From Aquilaria yunnanensis (Eukaryota; Streptophyta; Magnoliopsida; Malvales; Thymelaeaceae), in assembly GCA_039654915.1 (NCBI GenBank), contig CM077594.1:15313001-15377000 (forward strand): a stretch of DNA of 64,000 nt, read 5' to 3'. The translations under genes were made by a program, and so were the position numbers. Below the pieces are notes generated by a model, which made no database searches, was not told the DNA's origin, and worked only from the letters and a program-made list of their open reading frames with translations. Each line of letters begins with the position of its first letter. Position 1 is the stretch's first letter. This document shows, one piece after another, positions 12,662 to 61,642 of the stretch.

Positions 12662-12734
12662 GTTGTTGTGGTGTAGTGGTTATCACGTCAGTTTTACACA
12701 TTAAAGGTTCCCAATTCGATCCTGGGCAGCAACA
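12662..12734 (+). tRNA. tRNA-Val-like gene (anticodon TAC), somewhat degenerate
   Basis: The 7-bp acceptor arms GTTGTTG and CAGCAAC pair fully (one G-T). The D arm GTGTAGTGGTTATCAC is canonical for plant tRNA-Val. The anticodon loop TTTACAC gives anticodon TAC (valine). A run of five T follows immediately at 12735-12739 as a Pol III terminator. Two defects suggest decay: a C-A mismatch in the anticodon stem (TCAGT against ATTAA) and a G-to-A change at the start of the T loop, giving CAATTCGATC where the B box should read GGTTCGA. No intron and no encoded CCA are present. It may be a weakly functional gene or a recent pseudogene. Confidence 0.65.
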
Positions 12735-38522: not shown

Positions 38523-41500
38523 TCAAGATGGAGCTCGGTTAGAGAGTCCAATCTTGACTAGTAAGGACTGAAAGCGAGTGCGTGGAAGCGGCTTGGTTAG
38601 TGCATCGGCTAGTTGATCTTCTGAGGATACATGAGTGACACGTAAAGCTCCACTTTGTACTTGTCCCCGAATAAAGTGATAATCAATTGCAACATGCTTC
38701 ATTCGTGAGTGGAAGACAGGATTAGAGCAAAGATGAGTTGCACCAATATTGTCACAATAAATAACTGGAGCAACAGGTAGACTTATGCCAAGCTCAGTTA
38801 GAAGGGAGCATATCCAGCGTAGCTCAGCAGCCGTAGAAGCAACAGCACGGTATTCAGCTTCCGTGGATGAGCGGGCAACCGTACGTTGTTTTTTGGAGGA
38901 CCAGGAAATGGGATTGCGACCAAGGTAAATAATGTAAGCACTGGTGGAGGTGTAGTCATCCTTATTCCCGGCCCAGTCAGCATCAGAGAAGGCATGAAGG
39001 GCTAGAGAGGTATCACGGTGTAAGGCAAGACCATGATCAGCTGTACCAGACAGATACCGCAGCAAGCGTTTGACAGCATTCCAGTGATCAGTAGAAGGTC
39101 GATGCATGAACTGAGACAGCTTGTTAACGGCATATGCAATGTCAAGGCGAGTGAGACATAAGTATTGAAGACTTCCAACTATTGTTCTGTATTCAGAAGG
39201 ATCGGGCAAGATAGTGCCGGAAGAGGTTGTGAGTGGTGGTGCAGTGGCAAGTGGAGTGAGGACAGATTTGGCTCCAGTCATGTGAGTGCGAGCGAGAAGA
39301 TCTGTGATGTATTTCCGCTGAGAGAGAAGTAAGCCAGTTGAAGTGGTGATAACTTCAATACCAAGAAAGTACGTCAAGTCACCGAGATCTTTGATGGAGA
39401 ATCGCTGGCCGAGGAGTGTGATAAACTGTTGAACGGTAGTGGCATTGCATCCTGTAATAATTATGTCATCAACATACACAAGGAGATAGACAAGATTACC
39501 TTTGTTGTGGAAGATGAACAGTGATGGGTCCGCATGAGAGTTTGTAAACCCTGAAGCTATAAGGAATTGCCGAAGCTCCTGGTACCAGGCTCGTGGTGCT
39601 TGTTTGAGACCATATATAGCCTTCCGTAGCTTGCATACATGGGTGGGATTATCACGATCAATAAAGCCTGGAGGTTGAGCCATGAAAACGTCTTCAGAGA
39701 GATGACCTTGTAAGAAGGCATTGTTGACATCGAGTTGACAAAGAGACCACCCTTGACTGACAGCAAGACTGAGAACCAAGCGAACAGTAGTTGGTTTAAC
39801 AACCGGGCTGAAAGTGTCATAGTAATCAACACCAGGACGTTGGTGGAATCCTTTGGCAACAAGTCGTGCTTTGTACCTGTCAACAGAGCCATCAGGTAGA
39901 TGTTTAATTCTATAAATCCATTTACAGCCGACAAGGTTTTGCGTGGAGTCAGAGGGGACAAGTTCCCAGGTGCCATTTCGGACAAGAGCATCATACTCTT
40001 CAACCATAGCCTGACGCCATTGAGGATGTTTAAGTGCTTGTGTTAGTGTATGTGGCTCAAGATGATGGTTTGAGGTGAGAGTAGCGGTGAGATTGAGTTT
40101 TTGGATAGGTTTATGAATTTGGTTTTTGGCACGAGTGGTCATGGTGTGAATGTTGTTGGGTGGTTTTGGATGAGGTAAGTCGGGATTAGTGCTTGTGTGG
40201 TTTGAACTTTCTGAGTAAGCAGCAGATTGTGTGGCTTGGTTCTTCGAAGGTTGGCTGAGAGTAAGTGTAGTTTCGGAGGGGGGACCGTGATTGATAAGAG
40301 TTTGAGTGTGAGAGGGGTCCGAGCTTAGGGGGGGTTGTGGAAGTGTTGAGGGGTGTAACTGTGGTAGGAAGAAAGGATGCTGAGGGAAGCCAGTTTGGTA
40401 GTGTTTGGGGACTTGGACGATGAAGATGACTTTGAATGGAGTTGAATGGAAAAACAGTTTCCACAAATTTAACATGCCTGGATGTGTAGAGTTTGGAAGT
40501 GGAAGGATCGAGACAAAGATAAGCACTTTGGGTGAGGGAGTACCCAACAAATACACACGGGGTGGAGCGAGATTCAAGTTTATGACGAGAGTAGGGACGA
40601 AGCCATGGATAGCATAAGCACCCAAAAATACGGAGTTTTGTGTAGTTTGGTGGAGAACGGAATAGGGACTCATAAGGAGAGAAGAGGGAGAGTGTGGGAG
40701 TAGGCATGCGATTAATGAGGTACACAGCGGTGGTGAAGGCAAAGTTCCAGTAAATAAGTGGAAGTGAGGCGTGAGTGAGTAGAGAGAGACCAATTTCAAC
40801 AATGTGTCGATGTCGGCGTTCAGAAAAACCATTGTGTTCAGGTGTATGTGGGGGAGTGGTGAGATGAGTAATGCCATGAAGGGATGGGAATCGATCTAAA
40901 GCTTGATATTCCCCACCATTGTCGGAGTAAAGAGTGACAATAGATTGTTTAAAATGATTTTCGACTAGTGCCTTGAACCGAATAAAGACATCGTAGACAT
41001 GAGATTTTTTCTTTAAGGGGTAATACCAGACATAGCGTGTGAAGTGATCAACGAAAATAACATAATACTTGAAGTCATCCACAGAGTAAACGGGGGAGGT
41101 CCAGACATCGGAAAAGATGATTTGTAAGGGGTGAGATGAAGTAATTGTAGATGTAGAGAAAGGAAGTTTGTGACTTTTATTAGTTAAACACGCATTACAG
41201 TGAGAGGTTTGTGATGTAGAATAAGGCAGAGAGGAAGCGGACATAATGTGTTGAAGAATGGATGATGATGGATGGCCTAACCTAGAGTGCCATTCAGATG
41301 AAGTGGTCTTGATACTGGAAAAGGCAACAAGCGGAGATGATAATTTTGGAGAGGAGGTCGGCCACTCATAGACGCCATCTTTAGTGTTTCCCGTCAGCAG
41401 TATTGCCCCCGTGCTTAGATCCTTAACATGAAAGACAGTGGGTAAGAATTCAATAGAAACATTATTGGTGTTGCAAAATTGATAGATAGATATAAGATTC

Positions 41501-42696
41501 TTTTTCATGGTAGGTACGCAAAGAATATTATGTAAAGTGAAAGTGCAAGTAGGGGTAGGGAGGGTGGTGGAACCAGTGTGGGTGATGTGAAGACCTGAGC
41601 CGTCGCCAATTGTAACGTCATCAGACCCTGCATAAAGATTATGAAGAGAGAGATTATTCAAGTCCATGGTGACATGGTGCGATGCGCCACTATCCAGCAG
41701 CCATGTGGGGGTGTCAGTGGTCTTAAGAGATGCAAAGTGTGCACGTGGTTGCCATGGTGAGGTAGGACGAGGGGTCTGTGGTCGTGTCGTTGAGGAACCA
41801 GATGAGTGTTGAGTGTTGACAAGTCGATAGAGTGGGCATCGTTTGACAGTGTGTCCTTGAGCACCACAACCTTGGCAATGCCCAAGATATGGACGTGGTG
41901 TGGATCGATCATTGCGCGGAGCATTTGATTGTTGTCGTTGATGATTAAAGGTGGTTGTGGGAGGACGCCAAGGCCTGCTGTGTTGAATGACAGGATTTGC
42001 AGTAGCTGGAAAGAAGGATGGCTGTGCATATGTTTGCTGGAGAGACGCCTCTTTGTTGATAAGTTTCTCATGAATTTCATCAAAGGAGATGGGCGTTTCT
42101 CGAGCATTGACGGCATCAATAATTCCTTTGTATTCTTCTCCAAGGCCATCAAGAATTTTATCAATGAGATCTTCTTCATCAACGGGTTTCCCCAGAAGAG
42201 CAAGTTCATCCGCCTTATGCTTAATAAACTGCATATATTCAGAGATTGTCTTGGAACCCTTGACACAGTTCTTCATTTGGTCCTTGATCTGTTTGATGTG
42301 ACCACGGGATGGTTTGGCGTAGGTGGTAGCCAAGCTTGCCCAAGCTTCCTGTGATATGGTGCTGCGTGCGAGAAGAGGTTGAATGGGTAGAGAGACTGCC
42401 CCAAGAAGTGCACTGAAGATGAGACGATCCTGGCACTTCCATGTTGTGTGGACTGGATTTGGGGTTGATTTGCCACTTTCAGTGATGGTTTGTGTGGGAC
42501 TGGGATAGGAGCCATCAAGGAAACCATACAGATCATATCCTTCTAGTAGACTTCGGATTTGGAGGCTCCATGTAATATAGTTGCTGGGAGTTAGTTTTGT
42601 GATGTTTGTAATGTTGATGGTAACCAGCGGATTAGCAGGGTCTTGGGCATTTTGAATGGTGGTATGAGAAGTTGCAGACGTTTCGTCAGAAGCCAT
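38523..42696 (-). pseudogene. gag-pol of the copia element, with one frameshift
   Basis: The frame opening at 42696 encodes gag (UBN2-like), a CCHC zinc knuckle at residues 274-287 (CQGCGAQGHTVKRC), the protease motif DSGASHH, the gag-pre-integrase motif WHSRLGH, and integrase with DNGGEY and PEHNGFSERRH. That frame terminates at 40186. Reverse transcriptase (LDVNNAFLQG, YVDDIIITG) and RNase H (YCDNIGATHL) lie in another frame that is open from 40877 to the stop at 38523. The two overlap in the variable proline/serine-rich linker between integrase and reverse transcriptase, so one small frameshift between roughly 40190 and 40430 breaks the polyprotein. All catalytic motifs otherwise look intact. 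Replicative enzymes of this element are therefore probably not made as one polyprotein. Confidence 0.9.
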
Positions 42697-42743
42697 TGCA
42701 AAGAGGGAAGGATGAGAACGAAGAAACAGGTCAGAAACGCAGA

Positions 42744-42756
42744 GGCTCTGATACCA
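42744..42756 (-). other. Primer-binding site of the copia element
   Basis: On the minus strand it reads TGGTATCAGAGCC directly after the 5' LTR, complementary to the 3' end of initiator tRNA-Met. Confidence 0.9.
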
Positions 42757-42981
42757 TAATGATCTGACAAATACTTGCAGTTTCATTGAACAAATGTGAG
42801 GTATATATACACGTACAGGAGATTGGCAGTTGACCAAATCTCATTTAAATGGAAATCCAATATCCTAATTTTAGTTAATTGCCTAATCTATGGGATGTGT
42901 TTGCCAATACAATAGATACATCAATAGGGGAGTTTAATGAGTTTAGTCAAATAGGCAGATAATAAGTTAATTCCTCTAATA
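42757..42981 (-). repeat. 5' LTR of the copia element
   Basis: A 225-bp copy, differing from the other LTR by 'acgtac' versus 'acatac' and 'ggcagttg' versus 'ggtatttg'. Confidence 0.92.
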
Positions 42982-51027: not shown

Positions 51028-53991
51028 CTACAAGGTGTTAGAGTTCTTCTGGTTTTGGATGGATTCACCTTGCAATTCGATTGCAGGCACCATCTCATAC
51101 CGAGAACTCTCCCTGAACCGTGCTGGTAAGAACCACCTACCTCCATATCTCTGCTGTAGAAAGATAGTAGCAGAAAATAGCAAACCAGTCAGCGGTATTA
51201 TGATATCCCAGGCAGTGGAATAGAAATCCTTTTTGTGATCTGCATAAATGTATGATATGTCAAGGTAGCTGGATGAGCTGTGACCTCTGTAAAGGTCATA
51301 CGTGTGAGGTAGTAGACGAACCAAGGTCATCCCCATGTAAAAGCATGTGGAGAGAGCCTTCCCAGTTGAGTTGGATAACAGGTTTAACACTATCTGTGGC
51401 AGCAAAAAACCATCAAGGATAAGACCACCATAGGACTTAAGGTCACTCCAGAAAACTGGCTGTCTGTGTAATTGCTTCTTTGGGTAGACCCGTAGTTTCC
51501 CATTAATGTGTCGTACTAAATATGGGCTCTGATGAGCACCCCGCCATAGATGAACAATCCAAGCAATCATCCCACCACTAACATATAATGGTAAACATAC
51601 ATACAAAACTTTTCTCTCAGCTGCCCACAAGTCTCTTCCACTTTCACTACCTGTTCTTGCAGACAATGAGAGTTGTACCAGATAGAATTGCAAAAGGAAA
51701 GCTATCATAGTTGCCACCCTAACCAATATTTCATTTGTTTCAAGCCATCCACCGCTCTCGAGAAAGACATTCCGCTGACTATAATTCTTTATGAATAAGG
51801 CTTCAAAGTTCAACAATAGAGGGATCATGTATCCAAGAGTAAGCATCACAAGCATCAAAACCGAAGCAAAGGGAAGCACGTGTTGCTGTTTCTTCACATG
51901 AAGAAGTTGCCAGCCCATGGATATGCATGCTAGTGTATTGGAAATCAGGACCATTGTAATCTCAAGATCCATTCTCCATATAGAATCTTTAGCCTGCCTA
52001 TTGTAGTAGGATTTTGAAGAAACATCAATAGGTTCAAAATATAGAGGATCTGACTTTGGGCGTCTGCTTTTGATAGTTCCTGTTAGATGGTTGGCGCTCG
52101 CAACATTCATAGGAGAAAACTGCAAAGTAACAGTTATATCACAGTCCAGTGAGTCATTTTGCGATAAACTTCCATTATTTGGAGCTCTATGCCAGCATCC
52201 CGTCATGCACAGGAGACCTGTATGTTGATCATATATTCCTTCTGCAGAAATTTCAACTCCACCTAAAGTAGAATCCTTACCACCGAAGTTTGTGATAGAC
52301 ATGAAGGTCAACTTGTAGCTGATATTCAGAAGGGTGCTATCACTAACACTCCGCTGAACTGTCGACAGATTTTGTGGTGACACAAACCAATAGTTCTGGT
52401 ATTTATACAACTGATCGCCGACAAATAGAGGTGACGCATAACCCTGTAGCGTCTGCCCTTTACCATCTACAGCCAAGAGGTCAAACCTCATGTCAGATGA
52501 GTGTGGACTAGGATACTTCTTCCCAGGGTGCCGAACTACTTTCTTGTTAGCACAAGAACTTCTTGCAGTATCTATCTCAGTATACTTGTATCCCAAACCA
52601 GGAATGCCCAGAGTTGACCACTTTACACTTTTGAATCTAATTCTTCTGAAGTACCCAGGATCCTTTTCAGTTTTGTTGCTCCAAATTTTTCCCATAATCG
52701 AACTTGTCCTTTTCAATGTCCAAATCTTGGGGAATCTAAAAGTGAAGTTAACAGAACAATCCCCAACAACAGCACCGGTCACACTGTCGCTGAAATTTAA
52801 AACACGACAAGCTACACCACAGAGTCTATTCTTCTTCGCATCCCAAACTCCCTCAGCAATCAATGTAGTGCTAAGATCAAAAGGAAATGTGTATGAAACA
52901 GGAAGGCTCAAGTTGTGGAATGCCAAAAGGGCTTGCATTTTACCTTCATCTACACAAGTGGCCTGCCTGAAAGTCATCAAATTTGGCAAAAATGAAGCTC
53001 TGCTAGTCAGAGGACTGCAATTACCATTACCACAATTGCCTCCATAGTCCAATTGAAATTCAACATTTTTCCTCCGAAGCACCGAACATATTCCTCCCTT
53101 CACTGCAGCAAGAGACAAACTTTCTTCTTCCTCATCATCCTGACTTGAGCATGAAGGTTCAGATCCATTACCCACCAATGTATACTCATATTTCTCATCA
53201 TTCTGTCTCAAACCGATAATTGAAACTGGCTCAAAATAGCTACCACTACTCCTATCATCCAAACTCTCGAGAACTCCACTAACTAAACTACCAAAAACAG
53301 TAGAGTTCTGGGAATAATGTAGCTCAAGCATAACATTTAAAGATTTCACCTTGCCACCATCTTCATAACTGGTTCCTGATCCGATCATACAAATCTTCCC
53401 TGTCGATTCGGACCAAAATCCATTCAGAACAAACCTCGGCGTGCCTCTGCCGAACACCGGAATTCGCGGGCCCCTGATCTTGAACCGCGACTTTCGGCGA
53501 TTCACAGGGTTCGCCCTGGAGGAGGACGACCCAAGAATCTGCAAACTTAGCATTCCTCGGATCTGGTAGACGTAATTACCATTGTCGAAGACCGCACGCT
53601 GAATATGAGGGACGAAACCAGCGGATTGGAGGGAATGGATGCCGGCATTTGAGCTGGGGAAGAGGGCGTCGCCGCCTGAGAAGGAACCGGTGTCGAATTG
53701 AATGACGCGAATGAAGGGGCGGCGATCGCCTTCGGTGGCGTCGAGCGGCGGGGTGGGAACGATGCGATTGCAGTGTTGATCGTAAAGTTGGGATTGAATT
53801 GGGACCGAAGCGAATGCTAGAGGAACATGAAGAAGGGGAAAAGCGAGGAGAAGAAGAATTTGAAAAATCGGGGTTTTTGGAGGGTTTTTCCGGCGCCACG
53901 GAGGTGGTGAGAAAAGGGTATTTGTCTCCATTGATGGATGTGGAAGGAGGGATCTCTGGAACTGGAAAGAGAAGGCGAAGCGAAGGACCAT
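51028..53991 (-). CDS. DUF2921 family multispanning membrane protein
   Basis: An intronless frame of 987 codons. The likely initiator is the second ATG (53931, giving 967 aa), because it puts the hydrophobic signal segment PIFQILLLLAFPLLHVPLAFA near the N terminus. The first ATG (53991) has an acceptable context too. A large lumenal or extracellular region (to about residue 690) contains three related modules with the repeated pattern 'GxWxxxxxxLCMxGC' (e.g. EGIYDQHTGLLCMTGC), then about seven helices from 710 to 960. The charged start of the membrane region reads WRMDLEITMVLISN. The family is widespread in plants (Arabidopsis At1g52780 is of this type). The membrane part is related to that of FLY1/Tul1-type ubiquitin ligases as far as I recall, but no RING cysteines are present at this C terminus. 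Function unknown. Confidence 0.9.
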   Translation of the reverse strand: MVLRFAFSFQFQRSLLPHPSMETNTLFSPPPWRRKNPPKTPIFQILLLLAFPLLHVPLAFASVPIQSQLYDQHCNRIVPTPPLDATEGDRRPFIRVIQFDTGSFSGGDALFPSSNAGIHSLQSAGFVPHIQRAVFDNGNYVYQIRGMLSLQILGSSSSRANPVNRRKSRFKIRGPRIPVFGRGTPRFVLNGFWSESTGKICMIGSGTSYEDGGKVKSLNVMLELHYSQNSTVFGSLVSGVLESLDDRSSGSYFEPVSIIGLRQNDEKYEYTLVGNGSEPSCSSQDDEEEESLSLAAVKGGICSVLRRKNVEFQLDYGGNCGNGNCSPLTSRASFLPNLMTFRQATCVDEGKMQALLAFHNLSLPVSYTFPFDLSTTLIAEGVWDAKKNRLCGVACRVLNFSDSVTGAVVGDCSVNFTFRFPKIWTLKRTSSIMGKIWSNKTEKDPGYFRRIRFKSVKWSTLGIPGLGYKYTEIDTARSSCANKKVVRHPGKKYPSPHSSDMRFDLLAVDGKGQTLQGYASPLFVGDQLYKYQNYWFVSPQNLSTVQRSVSDSTLLNISYKLTFMSITNFGGKDSTLGGVEISAEGIYDQHTGLLCMTGCWHRAPNNGSLSQNDSLDCDITVTLQFSPMNVASANHLTGTIKSRRPKSDPLYFEPIDVSSKSYYNRQAKDSIWRMDLEITMVLISNTLACISMGWQLLHVKKQQHVLPFASVLMLVMLTLGYMIPLLLNFEALFIKNYSQRNVFLESGGWLETNEILVRVATMIAFLLQFYLVQLSLSARTGSESGRDLWAAERKVLYVCLPLYVSGGMIAWIVHLWRGAHQSPYLVRHINGKLRVYPKKQLHRQPVFWSDLKSYGGLILDGFLLPQIVLNLLSNSTGKALSTCFYMGMTLVRLLPHTYDLYRGHSSSSYLDISYIYADHKKDFYSTAWDIIIPLTGLLFSATIFLQQRYGGRWFLPARFRESSRYEMVPAIELQGESIQNQKNSNTL

Positions 53992-55216: not shown

Positions 55217-58200
55217 CTAGGAAAATTGGGCACAATCAATCCCCTTATCTAAGAGTGCCTGCACAAGCTTGGGGTAGAGCTTAGCCAGCATGATTTTGAA
55301 CCCAGCGGAACTTCCTTTCCTATTTTCAACCCAACTTTCATTACACTCCAGAGCAGAACCGATTGAAGCACCTTCCATATAGGCCTTGCAAGCGGACAGA
55401 ATGAACTGAGACTGTTTGGTGAAGTGCCCTTGGACAAGTGCCTCAAAATGCTACACCCAAAAAATGAAGAGATAAAAATCAATACTTGCAAGGGAAAGAA
55501 TGATTTGATGTCTTAGGAAGAAACATGTATTTCCATACTAATTCCAGTGCAATGAACATGTATGATCGTTTTGTGATATTCCTGTGATTATCAAAACCAG
55601 CTTAACGGGAGTACAAGTTCTTGAAACAGATGGATGATTTAGCCAGCAGAGTCGTTCAGAATCTACATTTTACCTGGGGCGGTTTGCGGAGCACATAAAG
55701 CATGGACTTCCAGGTTAGAAGAAAAGCACTCTCGTTATAGCAAATTGAATTTTTCTCCCCTTCAGTGCTTCCCACCTGCTTATCATATCCAGCCTCATTG
55801 AAGTAGGGCTTCTCATTTAGCACAAGACCCTGGAGGGACAGCAGAACTTGGAGAATGGTGGAGCTTTCTGGTGTCCATACTTCACTGCCCGAACCTGTCC
55901 ATGTGTTCAGAAGGCTGAGGCAAACACGCCCAGATTCATACAAGTTTGGGTTGACTCGGAGTCCTCCAGAGTTGTAATGTACCAACTGCATAGAGTTTCA
56001 CATGAGAACAATATTTCTTTTAATTTAAATGACTTCACAGTTAGAATGGTTGCCCTATTGCTTCGACTTTGGTGATAGTTGAAGATGTTCTGCCCAAAAT
56101 CTTGGAGCAAGGGCGAATTGAAGAAAGAAAGAAAGAAGAATGCAACTTTCCTTTTTACAAGCATAAATTTCATGAAATTTGTACTTCCTAGAACTGCCTA
56201 ATCTTATTTTGTTTGAGAGATGACTGCATGCAGAATTATAGAGTACTTAGAGAATGGTGAAATTTTGACAACTTACAGGTGGTTCATTAGGATATTCAGG
56301 AGGAATGAATATATCAAAAAAGAACAGCCCGTCCTGGTAGGGCGTTCCAGTTGGGCCAACAATGGCTGCTCGAAGAATGTCCATCCTCTCCTCATATATG
56401 CGGACATAGATCGTCTCTGTGCCACAATTAACAGCATCAATAAGAAACTACTATTGTTATGTTTTGGTCATGCATGAGAATTAGGAATATGACAGATGGG
56501 ACGATAACATCAGCTGGCTTTGTAGCCAGGTGAAACGAAGACAAGACAAAGCAGAAACAGAATAAGTGAAACAGCCTTTTTAGTTTACCAAATTTGGCTG
56601 GAGTGTGACAACCAACAAGAAGAGATCTCTGAACACAACAAATTGAGGATTCAATTGTCAAACTAATCAAGGTTTTTGCATATGCATTGCATTCAAATTT
56701 TATGCATGACTACAACGTTTCATCTTCAGCTAATTTATGTGCAGTTTGAGTGGACCAGATTTCCCAGTATAGCGTATTAGCCACTACTTCACTGTGTGTT
56801 TCCTTGAAGTGGAGAACAGAAAGGAAAAAGGAAGTCCGCATCATCTAACGTGTTTCACAACACCAAGAACTTGCCACAAATACATGAAATACCATCCATT
56901 TAAGTTGGCCATACTTGAGATTTTTAGAATTATCAAGCAGTGGCATCCCATGCTGTCATTTATTTTCTCCGTGACAGAAATGTATCATAATACCATCACC
57001 TGTTTATATGGAGGAAAAGGGCACAAATAATGTTCTACATGGACAAAAGAGGCCATATGCATATTTTCAAATCATATTCTTTTACATAGAAGTCCACATT
57101 ATGGTGCTATTTCCAGGATGAGTAATTTTTCTGCCTTGTCAGACAGATAAATTAACAAACATAGCAAATATCTATCTGCCACATGATATATTAACATATG
57201 TAGCAAATATCACATCAATTTTGATCATAACTCCAGAATTAGCAAAGACTTCAGCCCCTTTGACACAAATTTATCCATTCAGATGAAAAAGAATAAACTA
57301 CTGGTGTCAAAAGAAAATAGTTACTGCTTCTGTATAAATAGAAGAGAAGAGTATTGACCTGGGAGATTATTCTCCAGGATGCTCCATTCTCGTTGAACCT
57401 TCTTAAGCCAACTTCTTTTCATCTGTGAGGGAAAAGTGGACAAAAAAAATCATCATTTTCCATATCAGGACAAGAAATGGGTTGCTAAGGGATGATTGGT
57501 CATCTTTCTAACCTGAGGACCAGAGGCCTTGCTTTCTGCAATAAAGTGGTGGTCTGAACAGTCACAGACTATATCAAACTGCTTAAACTGATAAGGATTT
57601 CCACAGGCTCTTGGAGTGATAACATTCTGGTTCTCATTCTCTTCATATTCCTGCTTCGAAGTTCCCACGGAGAACTCCCGTGGCCCACTTGGATCAGCTG
57701 CAGCATAGATGTCATGTGCCTCAGATTCCTGTGTCTCAGTTTCATAGGCTTTTCTACCACTGATGATGTCATGAGACGGCACTAAGCCAAATAGTGATAT
57801 GGAACCAAGGGACGCAAAGAGGCTGGAAACTGTGGTTGTAAGAAATCCAACAACAGATTGGGGAAAAGAGCTAGCAGGTCCTGAGGAATTACCCTCTCTG
57901 TTTTCACCAGCATGATCACAACTCATTGAATCCTGATAATACAAATCTTATTCAATTCCAGAGCAGAAATGATTTTAAATGATGCAAATTCTTTCTTTTC
58001 ACTAATTGAATTCTGAAGCAAAGCCTTCCCATAATTCAAGATTTAACTAATCAGTTATTTATTTAATGTAACAACAGATATTGTAATCTACTAGTTTTAT
58101 CCACATTGAACCATCTCAAGATTCAATGTTTGTTCCATATTTTGTATCTAATATCCTAACTATGGATCCTTCTGTAAAATCTCTTAAGGTGAATGCAATC

Positions 58201-60881
58201 AATCACGTCGCCCCCACATACCGATTCTGTTCTTTTCTTCTCTTCATCTTTTCAATTTGGATCTTCTCATGAAATTTTACACTAATTTTCTTATGAAATT
58301 GTACACTAACTTTAACAGAATATTATGTCTTTTGTCAAAGCGAAAAAGTTAAAATTACTTCAAAAATCAGAATATAAACACAAAATTGAGGCATTCAAAG
58401 AAGATGCATTTGTTAGTTAAAAAATTCCACTATTACCCACAACGATACAAAACTAAAAAAGGATCCTGGAAAATGAACGAACTCAATAGCTAATTTATGA
58501 GGCAGTTTAGTGCATAAATTTCCTTTCCTAGCAACAGCCAGCTCATGTTCAAGTAATAGTAATAACCGTTCTTGAAAAGACGTTATAGCAAGAAAAGAAA
58601 AAGTAAAACAGGATGATTTATATTGGTGGCAGAAAATTGTAATACAAATATAAAAAAAATCAACCACATGCATGTCTGCCTTCTTAGGCATCAGAGAAAT
58701 GCACACAGACGGGAGACATATGCATGCTAAAGGAAGAGAGCTGGCTGTACCATGTCTTTTGTGATGCAAGACAGTTTGTCACGTCCTATCACCTCTTGAG
58801 TAAGATTGGCACCATTTTCTTCAGATAGAGCTGGGGCTGCGGTTGAGTCTTCATATTTGTCAATTCTATAAATCTCATCAGGTGCAACCTGGAAGAAAGC
58901 TAGTCAGCTAATGGCAAGTTTGTTTTCTTTTGTTCTTTGAAATACAATAAATAAGTCAACTATGTAGAAATGTAAAATCCAAATGCTGAGATGAAACTGC
59001 ACATGTCCGAGTACTACAGAATGACCTCCACTAAGGACTTCAAAAGTTAGGCAGACAAATACAATGCAGAAAATGGTTACTATTGTAAAAGCAGGGAATA
59101 ACAAAGGGAAATATCGGGGGGCAAAAACAAAAACAAAACAAAAAAAATGTCATATTTCAGAGTTTGCCTCTGAACACCAATATATTTTCTTAGTTGCAGT
59201 TGGCCACCTACTATTTTAACCGATCACCATGAAGAGGCAGGGGAATCCTTTCCCTTATACAGCATCACATATCTCAGTTAAGCATCTACACACACACACA
59301 CACATACCTACACCCACACTCACACTAAAGACATGTATGAAGGATGGCACTAATTATCTTTAGATGTAATTGCAGTATTAACTCATAAAGAAGAAACTGA
59401 GAACTCGCAAAAGAAGAAATTGAGTATGACTAACATTGGACTATCAATACCTTTGTCGATAAACCAGTTGCCCATTTCACTTGTACTTCACCATCTTTGA
59501 AGCCTACAACAACACCAATACTGGCCAGGCATTTTCTACTGGTGTTGTCACTCTCAACAACAGCATCATTATTGATTATTGGAGAAGCCTGTGCATCCAA
59601 ATCATTTCCTGACTGTACGTTACCATTATAGGTTAGATCACTTGTTTCATTCTGGACCACGCGAAATACAACATCCCCAAAACAGAAGGAATAGTCAGGG
59701 TGTTCAATAAGCTCATAAGCACTCACAGTTTCCTTAATCACGTCCTCACAAACCCTACTAACTTCATTGATAATCATGCTTCTCCATTGCACCTTTACTG
59801 TCCGTTCCTTTGCATCCACACCCACCACAACACCCCATCTTGGACTATCATCACTACCTTCCTTCTCAAGGACAAACTGTTCAGGCCAAAATTCATGAGC
59901 AGTTATGCTACTAACAGGGATTACACTATGGGAATCCAACCCCACGCTGCAGCTGCCATCTTGCCACAATACATCGACCTTTGACTTTATCTTTGCAATG
60001 ACAAAGAGCTCTTCTAATACTGAATGAGCTTTTTCTCTTTCAAATCCACTTTCTTGCTTTCTGGGATTTCTAATTTGATCACAAGTGATTCCATCAAGAA
60101 AATTTTGCTGGCCTAGTATACCCTGCTCTGCCAAAGGAAGTATGCACCAGTCACACAGCTGCCAGTTTGCATGGGAAAAGCAAGACAACACAGTCAGGTT
60201 TTTTGGTTCCTGCATACGAGGGGGAAGGTTGGCCTTAAAACCACGATCTACATGAGTAGAGGCAATCCAGTCAACATATACCAGCCCTGCATCTACAACA
60301 GAAACAGTTCCTTCACACTGCATATCCTTCCAGGTTCCACATAACCACCTTGTTGACTTAGTCACATTTGAGTCCAAAACTTTCACTCTCTGTCCTGGAT
60401 AATAGGGATATTGTAAATCTTCAAATAAGTTGAGCGAAACTGGTACAAGCTTGACATGATCAGCAGCCACAACTTCACATTTTGAGCCATCATCAAGCAC
60501 AACAGAGATGTGGTCAACAACCTTATCGACTCTTCCTATCCATGTGCCGTGAACCACATAATCTCCAACAGAGACAGAGCGGATCTTCAAAAGACTCTTG
60601 GAGTTCACATTCTTTATTTTTGTCCCAAGTCCATTCTCAAGATCCACAAACATATTAATGTTGATTACTCTGCCAGTCTGTCCAGAAGGGTCTGCCATTG
60701 AGCACACAATTTCCCCATATATGAACCCTCTCTCAAATGAGAGGAAATCATCAATTTTTCCAATGCTGTCCTCAAGGCTTGACAAGATGCCACCATACAA
60801 AATGTTGATTTCCTCTTGCTCCTCGCTGCCGCTACTTTCACTAAAATTCTCCCAATCAGATTCGCTGAGGAGAAAATCCAT
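55217..60881 (-). CDS. PHO2: Ubiquitin-conjugating enzyme E2 PHO2 (UBC24)
   Basis: Seven coding exons (60881-59451, 58888-58751, 57932-57513, 57422-57359, 56416-56277, 55985-55674, 55450-55217) close in frame at 912 aa, about the length of Arabidopsis PHO2. The long N-terminal part (residues 1 to about 660) starts SDWENFSESSGSEEQEE and includes SFERGFIYGEIV, YYPGQRVKV and FSHANWQLCDWCILP, all typical of PHO2 and its SH3-like/Tudor-like repeats. The UBC domain covers about 665-880, with catalytic Cys753 in GRVCLSLLNTW and FFDIFIPPEYPNEPP before it. PHO2 acts at endomembranes and promotes degradation of PHO1 and PHT1-route phosphate transporters, limiting phosphate uptake and root-to-shoot loading. 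Its leader holds miR399 sites (61300-61642). A 5'-leader intron is likely because an acceptor (CAG) lies 11 nt before the ATG. No defect seen. Confidence 0.96.
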
Positions 60882-61299
60882 TCTTCAAGTGCCTGGCACA
60901 ATATTTTGTACAATATAGATCAACACAATCAAGAAAAGGGAAAGTATATAGTCAATGAAAGAAAACTGTAATGGACATGACATGCTTAGAAACTTCATTT
61001 ATCAGCTACTAAAATAAATTACATGAATGAGATAGTTCCAAACATGATTGTGAATGTGCATGTCTGAGTCTGCATAAATGCTAATAACAGTTTGAGGATA
61101 GAAAAACAATACCAGCACTTAAGCAACTTGATGAACAAGCTAGCCAAATGTATATTCCAGGAGCACTCAGAGTTAATAGCAAAATCCGGAACTCAAATGG
61201 AATGACATATTGTGCCTCAGAACTGCAAGTTGTCTTTCAGTTAATAAACTGATTGTAACAAATAATGAGTCAGTATCCTGAAAAGGATACTTTAGACTC

Positions 61300-61320
61300 T
61301 GCCAAAGGAGATTTGCCCTG
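61300..61320 (-). promoter_or_regulatory. miR399 target site 1 in PHO2 leader
   Basis: The plus strand here equals the mature miR399 sequence over all 21 positions (TGCCAAAGGAGATTTGCCC then TG). The minus-strand PHO2 transcript would thus pair perfectly with miR399. Located about 420 bp upstream of the PHO2 start codon. Confidence 0.92.
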
Positions 61321-61352
61321 ACGGACAAAGGAGCCAGTTAAGGACTCCCAAA

Positions 61353-61373
61353 TGCCAAAGGAGATTTGCCCAA
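61353..61373 (-). promoter_or_regulatory. miR399 target site 2 in PHO2 leader
   Basis: Identical complement over 19 positions (61353-61371). The last two differ (AA for TG), at the miRNA 3' end where mismatches are tolerated. A weaker 'caaaggag' core between sites 1 and 2 (about 61326) may be a decayed site. Confidence 0.9.
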
Positions 61374-61621
61374 AATGGACAGGTTTTCACAGGAGAAAGT
61401 AGACCACGACTGGGAAGAAAGGTATACTTGCGGACGTTTTCCTTGAAGGACAAGCTGAAGTTCCAAATACCACCCAATCATGAGCTTGAAATCCCAAAAT
61501 CATGAACTGGCTGAAGGAGAAACTTGTTCAACAACATCAAAGAGGAGTTCCAAAAACCAAAGATAACTGAGATCGAACCTGGCTTCTGAAAGAATTATTC
61601 ATTTCAAAAACCAAGTGAAAT

Positions 61622-61642
61622 TGCCAAAGGAGATTTGCCCCA
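61622..61642 (-). promoter_or_regulatory. miR399 target site 3 in PHO2 leader
   Basis: Identical complement over 19 positions (61622-61640), including the central cleavage positions. The final two bases are CA. It lies about 270 bp further upstream than site 2. Confidence 0.9.

Follow-up and report, generated by a model that had tools for sequence, protein, structure and literature searches.

Three predicted miR399 target sites with intact cores upstream of a PHO2/UBC24 gene of Aquilaria yunnanensis

The window (the whole stretch of 64,000 nucleotides that was analysed) very probably carries on its minus strand the 5' leader of an apparently single-copy PHO2/UBC24 gene, and this leader is predicted to contain three functional miR399 sites. 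It had been claimed for this region that the PHO2 strand has three sites complementary to miR399 over at least 19 positions, and these sites are real. Scanning the 64-kb window with the complement of miR399a gave three matches at up to five mismatches, each of them on the minus strand. The match at minus 61320-61300 has no mismatches (21/21), and those at minus 61373-61353 and 61642-61622 have two mismatches apiece, which are confined to the two 5'-most target bases. An identical, unbroken 19-nt core is common to the three sites, and all variation among them lies in these two bases, which are the partners of the miRNA 3' end. The next-best miR399a match in the window, at 60149-60129, has six mismatches and lies within PHO2 coding exon 1. 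The three sites are listed below.

61622..61642, minus strand: miR399 site A, first of the three from the 5' end of the transcript; core perfect over 19 nt; predicted slice 61632/61631
61353..61373, minus strand: miR399 site B; closest to an isoform of the plant's own; predicted slice 61363/61362
61300..61320, minus strand: miR399 site C; 21/21 with PvmiR399a; predicted slice 61310/61309

Sites A and B are spaced 269 nt apart and sites B and C 53 nt, and the structure predicted at all three is moderately open, at the 64th-80th percentile for the leader stretch. Upstream of the coding sequence there are, then, multiple miR399-complementary sites, three rather than the five usually reported for a miR399-regulated PHO2. 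Five is no strict requirement, as the four sites of N. benthamiana show. One site had also been described as complementary to miR399 over all 21 positions. This is correct for TGCCAAAGGAGATTTGCCCTG, which we take to be Arabidopsis miR399a, but it could not be extended to the plant's own miR399, as no locus for TGCCAAAGGAGATTTGCCCTG, the 21/21 partner of 61320-61300, was found in its own assembly. Outside PHO2, two MIR399 loci have the exact 19-nt core, with CAG and CGG as the last three bases of their isoforms, and this is why no own locus was found for the 21-nt match. In the published excerpts available, TGCCAAAGGAGATTTGCCCTG appears as PvmiR399a.

The sites are followed downstream by an intact PHO2/UBC24 gene. 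Its seven coding exons, which are separated by GT-AG introns and agree in phase, encode 898 aa.

59451..60881, minus strand: PHO2 coding exon 1; ATG at 60881; UBE2O-type SH3 domains
58793..58888, minus strand: PHO2 coding exon 2; placed by splice signals and phase; donor ambiguous, longer form possible
57513..57932, minus strand: PHO2 coding exon 3
57359..57422, minus strand: PHO2 coding exon 4
56277..56416, minus strand: PHO2 coding exon 5; contributes to the E2 (UQ_con) core
55674..55985, minus strand: PHO2 coding exon 6; E2 core, in which NLYESGRVCLSLLNTW surrounds the cysteine
55217..55450, minus strand: PHO2 coding exon 7 and stop codon

An in-frame stop codon just upstream of the ATG at 60881 makes it likely that this is the start codon. 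The protein contains the domains PF23046, PF23043, PF23044 and PF00179 (tSH3-B, SH3-B, SH3-C and the C-terminal ubiquitin-conjugating core); it is a long UBE2O-like E2 with N-terminal SH3-type domains and a C-terminal UBC core with its cysteine, as is characteristic of a PHO2 orthologue. A protein database search, in which 7993 candidates were scored, returned 604 proteins. Among the 120 matches listed, full-length identity reached up to 60%, the named proteins were from plants and many were annotated as E2 24, PHO2 or similar. Judged on these 120 of the 604 matches, the protein is closest to eudicot PHO2/UBC24 proteins and separate from a deeper paralogue. In a protein tree of 23 rows, made up of the own PHO2 and 22 proteins picked by hand from the listed matches, PHO2 groups with Rubroshorea (support 90/86), and together with three Malvaceae these form a set of five (support 100/100), a placement that we read as that of a member of the Malvales. 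The end branch of PHO2 (0.55) is the longest of the 23 rows, the next being 0.51 and 0.50 and the median 0.24. The full-length homologues listed include bean PHAVU_006G185400, whose locus number is that of PvPHO2 in excerpts of PMC3645745.

When the genome was searched with exon 1, only one further PHO2-like gene was found, at C6:19243448-19245040 (46% and 36% identity in two stretches). Going by its sequence, this gene is a deeper paralogue, and PHO2 therefore appears to be single-copy. The 18 kb fetched for the paralogue contained no miR399-like site (the best match had 6 mismatches of 19). Being too distant and lacking such a site, it is uninformative about which sites were lost. The identification of the gene as PHO2, which the original prediction had drawn from the sites, is thus borne out by evidence that does not involve them, namely the domains of the protein, its homologues and the number of exons. 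Downstream of PHO2, the window also has an open gene for a 987-aa DUF2921 membrane protein (51028-53991, minus strand). Elsewhere in it are a Copia-type retrotransposon (38523-42837, minus strand), whose gag, integrase and RVT_2 domains are spread over two frames that overlap, and a tRNA gene (12662-12734, plus strand), which is the sole Rfam match at gathering threshold.

In the same genome we counted eight loci with MIR399-like hairpins, seven on C1 (112.107-112.147 Mb) and one at C4:62163126-62163146. The seven hairpins on C1 are clustered inside 40 kb (C1:112107000-112147300), and one of them is almost a palindrome and has a miR399-like 21-mer on either strand, at 112139655 (minus) and at 112139723 (plus). 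When their folds were compared with those of dinucleotide shuffles, seven of the eight loci had z values of -5.0 to -12.8, with 0 of 200 shuffles as good; for the remaining hairpin, C1:112147209, which was cut to 147 nt, z was -1.46 and 15 of 200 shuffles were as good. The gathering score of the Rfam MIR399 family (RF00445) was reached by three of the eight loci, C1:112147209 included, and five fell short of it. Over the MIR399 cluster, the count of P1BS motifs (27) does not clearly exceed the shuffle mean (21), and the window contains fewer of them than its shuffles (16 versus 21). Descriptively, P1BS motifs also form close pairs, with distances of 38 and 32 nt inside the cluster and of 24 nt next to the C4 hairpin.

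A wider 18-nt miR399 pattern, allowing up to two mismatches, was found at 140 places in the whole assembly, compared with 10 for the reversed control. Nine of the 140 are exact, and all of these but one, on C17, belong to PHO2 or to the counted MIR399 loci. The bulk of the excess for this pattern lies beyond PHO2 and the counted loci, and hairpin testing covered a few places in the first part of the 140, which was the part listed. The following were rejected as MIR399 loci: C17:4993487, which has an exact 18-nt match, but only 15/21 positions paired and a weak fold (-25.7 kcal/mol); C2:100059007, with 18/21 paired, yet only within a 284-nt fold; and two places on C4, with 15/21 positions paired.

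The genome was also searched, at up to three mismatches, with the IPS1/At4 mimic motif, which gave 9 matches, versus 2 in the control. The best candidate in the genome for an IPS1/At4-type miR399 target mimic is GGGCAACTTCGAACCTTTGGCA (C8:79738092-79738113, minus strand), which has 2 mismatches to this motif and is preceded by a P1BS motif at a distance of 397 nt. A second mimic-like sequence, GGGCAACATAGGATCCTTTGGCA (C3:575355-575377), has a P1BS motif 226 nt upstream; it is a weak candidate, because the gapped pattern gave 3 matches versus 1 in the control.

The predicted mature products of the own MIR399 loci, which are predicted hairpins, pair with the PHO2 sites. Pairing was scored by a penalty (mismatch 1, G:U 0.5, one optional bulge) for eight sequences, namely the seven own isoforms and PvmiR399a; the plus-strand 21-mer at C1:112139723 was left out of both the penalty and the duplex-energy scoring. 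Over sites A-C, penalties ranged from 0.5 to 3.0 with the seven own predicted isoforms and from 0 to 1.5 with PvmiR399a. Site A scored 1.5-2.5 with the own isoforms and 1.0 with PvmiR399a; with the own isoforms, site B scored 0.5-3.0 and site C 1.0-2.5, the nearest of them pairing with site C at 20/21 positions. The best own pairing is that of the C1:112107049 isoform with 61373-61353, which consists of 20 Watson-Crick pairs and one G:U pair, and the best duplex at site B has 0.96 of the energy of a perfect duplex. Against the seven distinct own isoforms, duplex energies at sites A-C were 0.80-0.96 of perfect, and those of three weak candidates in the leader were 0.19-0.38. With the C1:112107049 isoform and without gaps, the sole additional match in the window up to penalty 5 is minus 60129-60149 (penalty 5.0), which is located in PHO2 coding exon 1 at the codons for WCILPLA; this match is probably fixed by the protein sequence.

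Could the three sites resemble miR399 targets by chance, without any relation to miR399? At up to one mismatch, the 19-nt core occurs at nine places in the own 842-Mb assembly (345 contigs), a count that is possibly a lower bound, and its reversed-pattern control occurs at none. These nine places are the three PHO2 sites, five in the 40-kb MIR399 cluster on C1 and the MIR399 locus on C4, so that each match is in PHO2 or at a MIR399 hairpin. A chance origin of the sites is therefore excluded for all practical purposes. A different question is whether the sites, although present in the DNA, are mostly absent from the mature transcript owing to a downstream start or to splicing, so that PHO2 would escape miR399 in some or most tissues. 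Excerpts of PMC10319397, which cites Scheible et al. 2023, mention a shorter spliced form of Arabidopsis PHO2 without miR399 sites, and in the present leader a splice-acceptor-like sequence, CTCCTTTGTCCGTCAG/GGCA, ends within site C. A simple consensus score picked out no strong splice donor on the way from the sites to the ATG; the best-scoring one is CAT/GTAATT at 61022. We regard such an escape as very improbable, because the sites of other species are reported in 5' leaders in the excerpts available, and because three 19-nt cores free of any change suggest that the sites are still under selection. We infer instead that PHO2 is expressed with a leader whose exon structure and splicing retain the three sites.

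It had also been proposed that an ancestral set of about five sites has decayed here to three, leaving as traces a fourth, core-only match at about 61326 and less clear matches at about 61505-61550. Excerpts describing PHO2 of Medicago, bean, barley and wheat report five sites, which makes such shrinkage plausible. If five sites were ancestral, the comparison suggests a loss of two. In bean, the five predicted sites are at 1084, 1175, 1345, 1399 and 1453 (PMC3645745, excerpts), and of the ten possible triples of these, sites 1, 3 and 4 (261/54 nt) best fit the spacing found here (269/53 nt). Residual sites were sought by comparison with shuffles, by penalty, by duplex energy (three candidates) and by position relative to bean. 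In the 741-nt leader stretch, the best residual penalty with the eight miR399 sequences was 7.0. In a seed-weighted gapped scoring against 60 dinucleotide-shuffled leaders, with one own isoform, 52, 28, 24 and 27 of the 60 shuffles did at least as well as the matches of ranks 1-4, and two other isoforms scored 11.5 and 10.5 at 61509, versus a rank-1 shuffle mean of 11.2. At about 61326 the core CTCCTTTG is indeed present, but as a decayed site it is at chance level against the shuffles, and its duplex energy is 0.27-0.36 of perfect. Moreover, it sits inside the 32-nt gap that separates sites B and C, whereas in bean the matching sites 3 and 4 are direct neighbours. For the one isoform, the less clear matches at about 61505-61550 are likewise within shuffle expectation, but one sequence is weakly favoured by its position.

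61535..61555, minus strand: possible relic of site 2 of a five-site set, lying where bean site 2 would be expected; not usable

This sequence (61555-61535) is the best match in the 25-nt stretch expected for bean site 2, and 4.5% of 552 leader windows equal it; its penalty is 7.5-8.5 in the four isoform lists that show it. At the place expected for bean site 5 there is nothing (54.5% of the 552 leader windows are as good). The named traces of decay could thus not be demonstrated, and it is possible but in our view doubtful that five ancestral sites lost two members whose remnants are the weak matches near 61326 and 61505-61555. A related idea, which we put forward tentatively and with somewhat less reserve, is that a five-site leader shrank to three in this lineage while each survivor was kept at an unbroken 19-nt match, giving fewer but stronger sites. 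If true, the leader would be a natural test of the trade-off between site number and site quality in PHO2 repression, and would involve the PHO2 protein on the longest end branch (0.55) of the 23-row tree.

The reading that we favour, a PHO2 leader with three miR399 sites, would place the gene, whose product restricts the uptake of phosphate, in the known phosphate-starvation response. At low phosphate, PHR1-type factors would raise MIR399 transcription, and AGO1 loaded with miR399 would bind the three leader sites and slice the PHO2 mRNA opposite miR399 positions 10-11. Less PHO2 E2 enzyme would then be made, and phosphate transporters would be kept. Both slicing and its dependence on phosphate are to be expected from the arrangement of sites and loci. 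This is a textbook miR399-PHO2 arrangement with fewer sites than usual, and it is mostly ordinary; a modest special feature is that the few remaining sites all retain a flawless 19-nt core. The known miR399-PHO2 mechanism is unchanged by it. The own predicted MIR399 loci support the presence of the miR399-PHO2 phosphate switch in a Malvales species, exact predicted cleavage positions are supplied for sites A, B and C, and a leader with three sites, where five are usual, would allow the question of how many sites suffice to be studied in a natural setting. A literature search of incomplete coverage returned no description of a three-site PHO2 leader in Malvales, from which we do not claim that none is in print.

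The closest parallel is PHO2 of Phaseolus vulgaris (Phvul.006G185400), in which, as here, the sites lie upstream of seven coding exons. According to excerpts of PMC3645745, bean PHO2 has nine exons, of which two belong to the leader, and it is the second of these two that holds the sites; cleavage by miR399 was shown by 5'RACE, and five sites are also named for rice, poplar and Arabidopsis. Under the scoring used for bean (mismatch 1, G:U 0.5), a penalty of up to 5 was counted as functional. Several of the five predicted bean sites have penalties of 3-6, whereas each of the three sites here has an intact 19-nt core. The PHO2 5' leaders of barley, wheat and Medicago also contain multiple predicted sites, five each versus three here (excerpts of PMC3878733, PMC4945926 and PMC10319397). 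In the barley degradome, miR399 cleavage was seen at sites 2 and 5 only of the five, and a perfectly matched site was not seen cleaved (PMC3878733, excerpts). N. benthamiana PHO2 resembles the present gene in having fewer than five predicted sites in its 5' leader, four there and three here. Its second and fourth sites were confirmed as cleaved by 5'RACE, and PHO2 was not seen in the degradome (PMC6296076, excerpts), whereas cleavage at the sites described here is predicted. Since the leaders described in these excerpts have five or four sites, the three sites found here place this PHO2 at or just below the low end.
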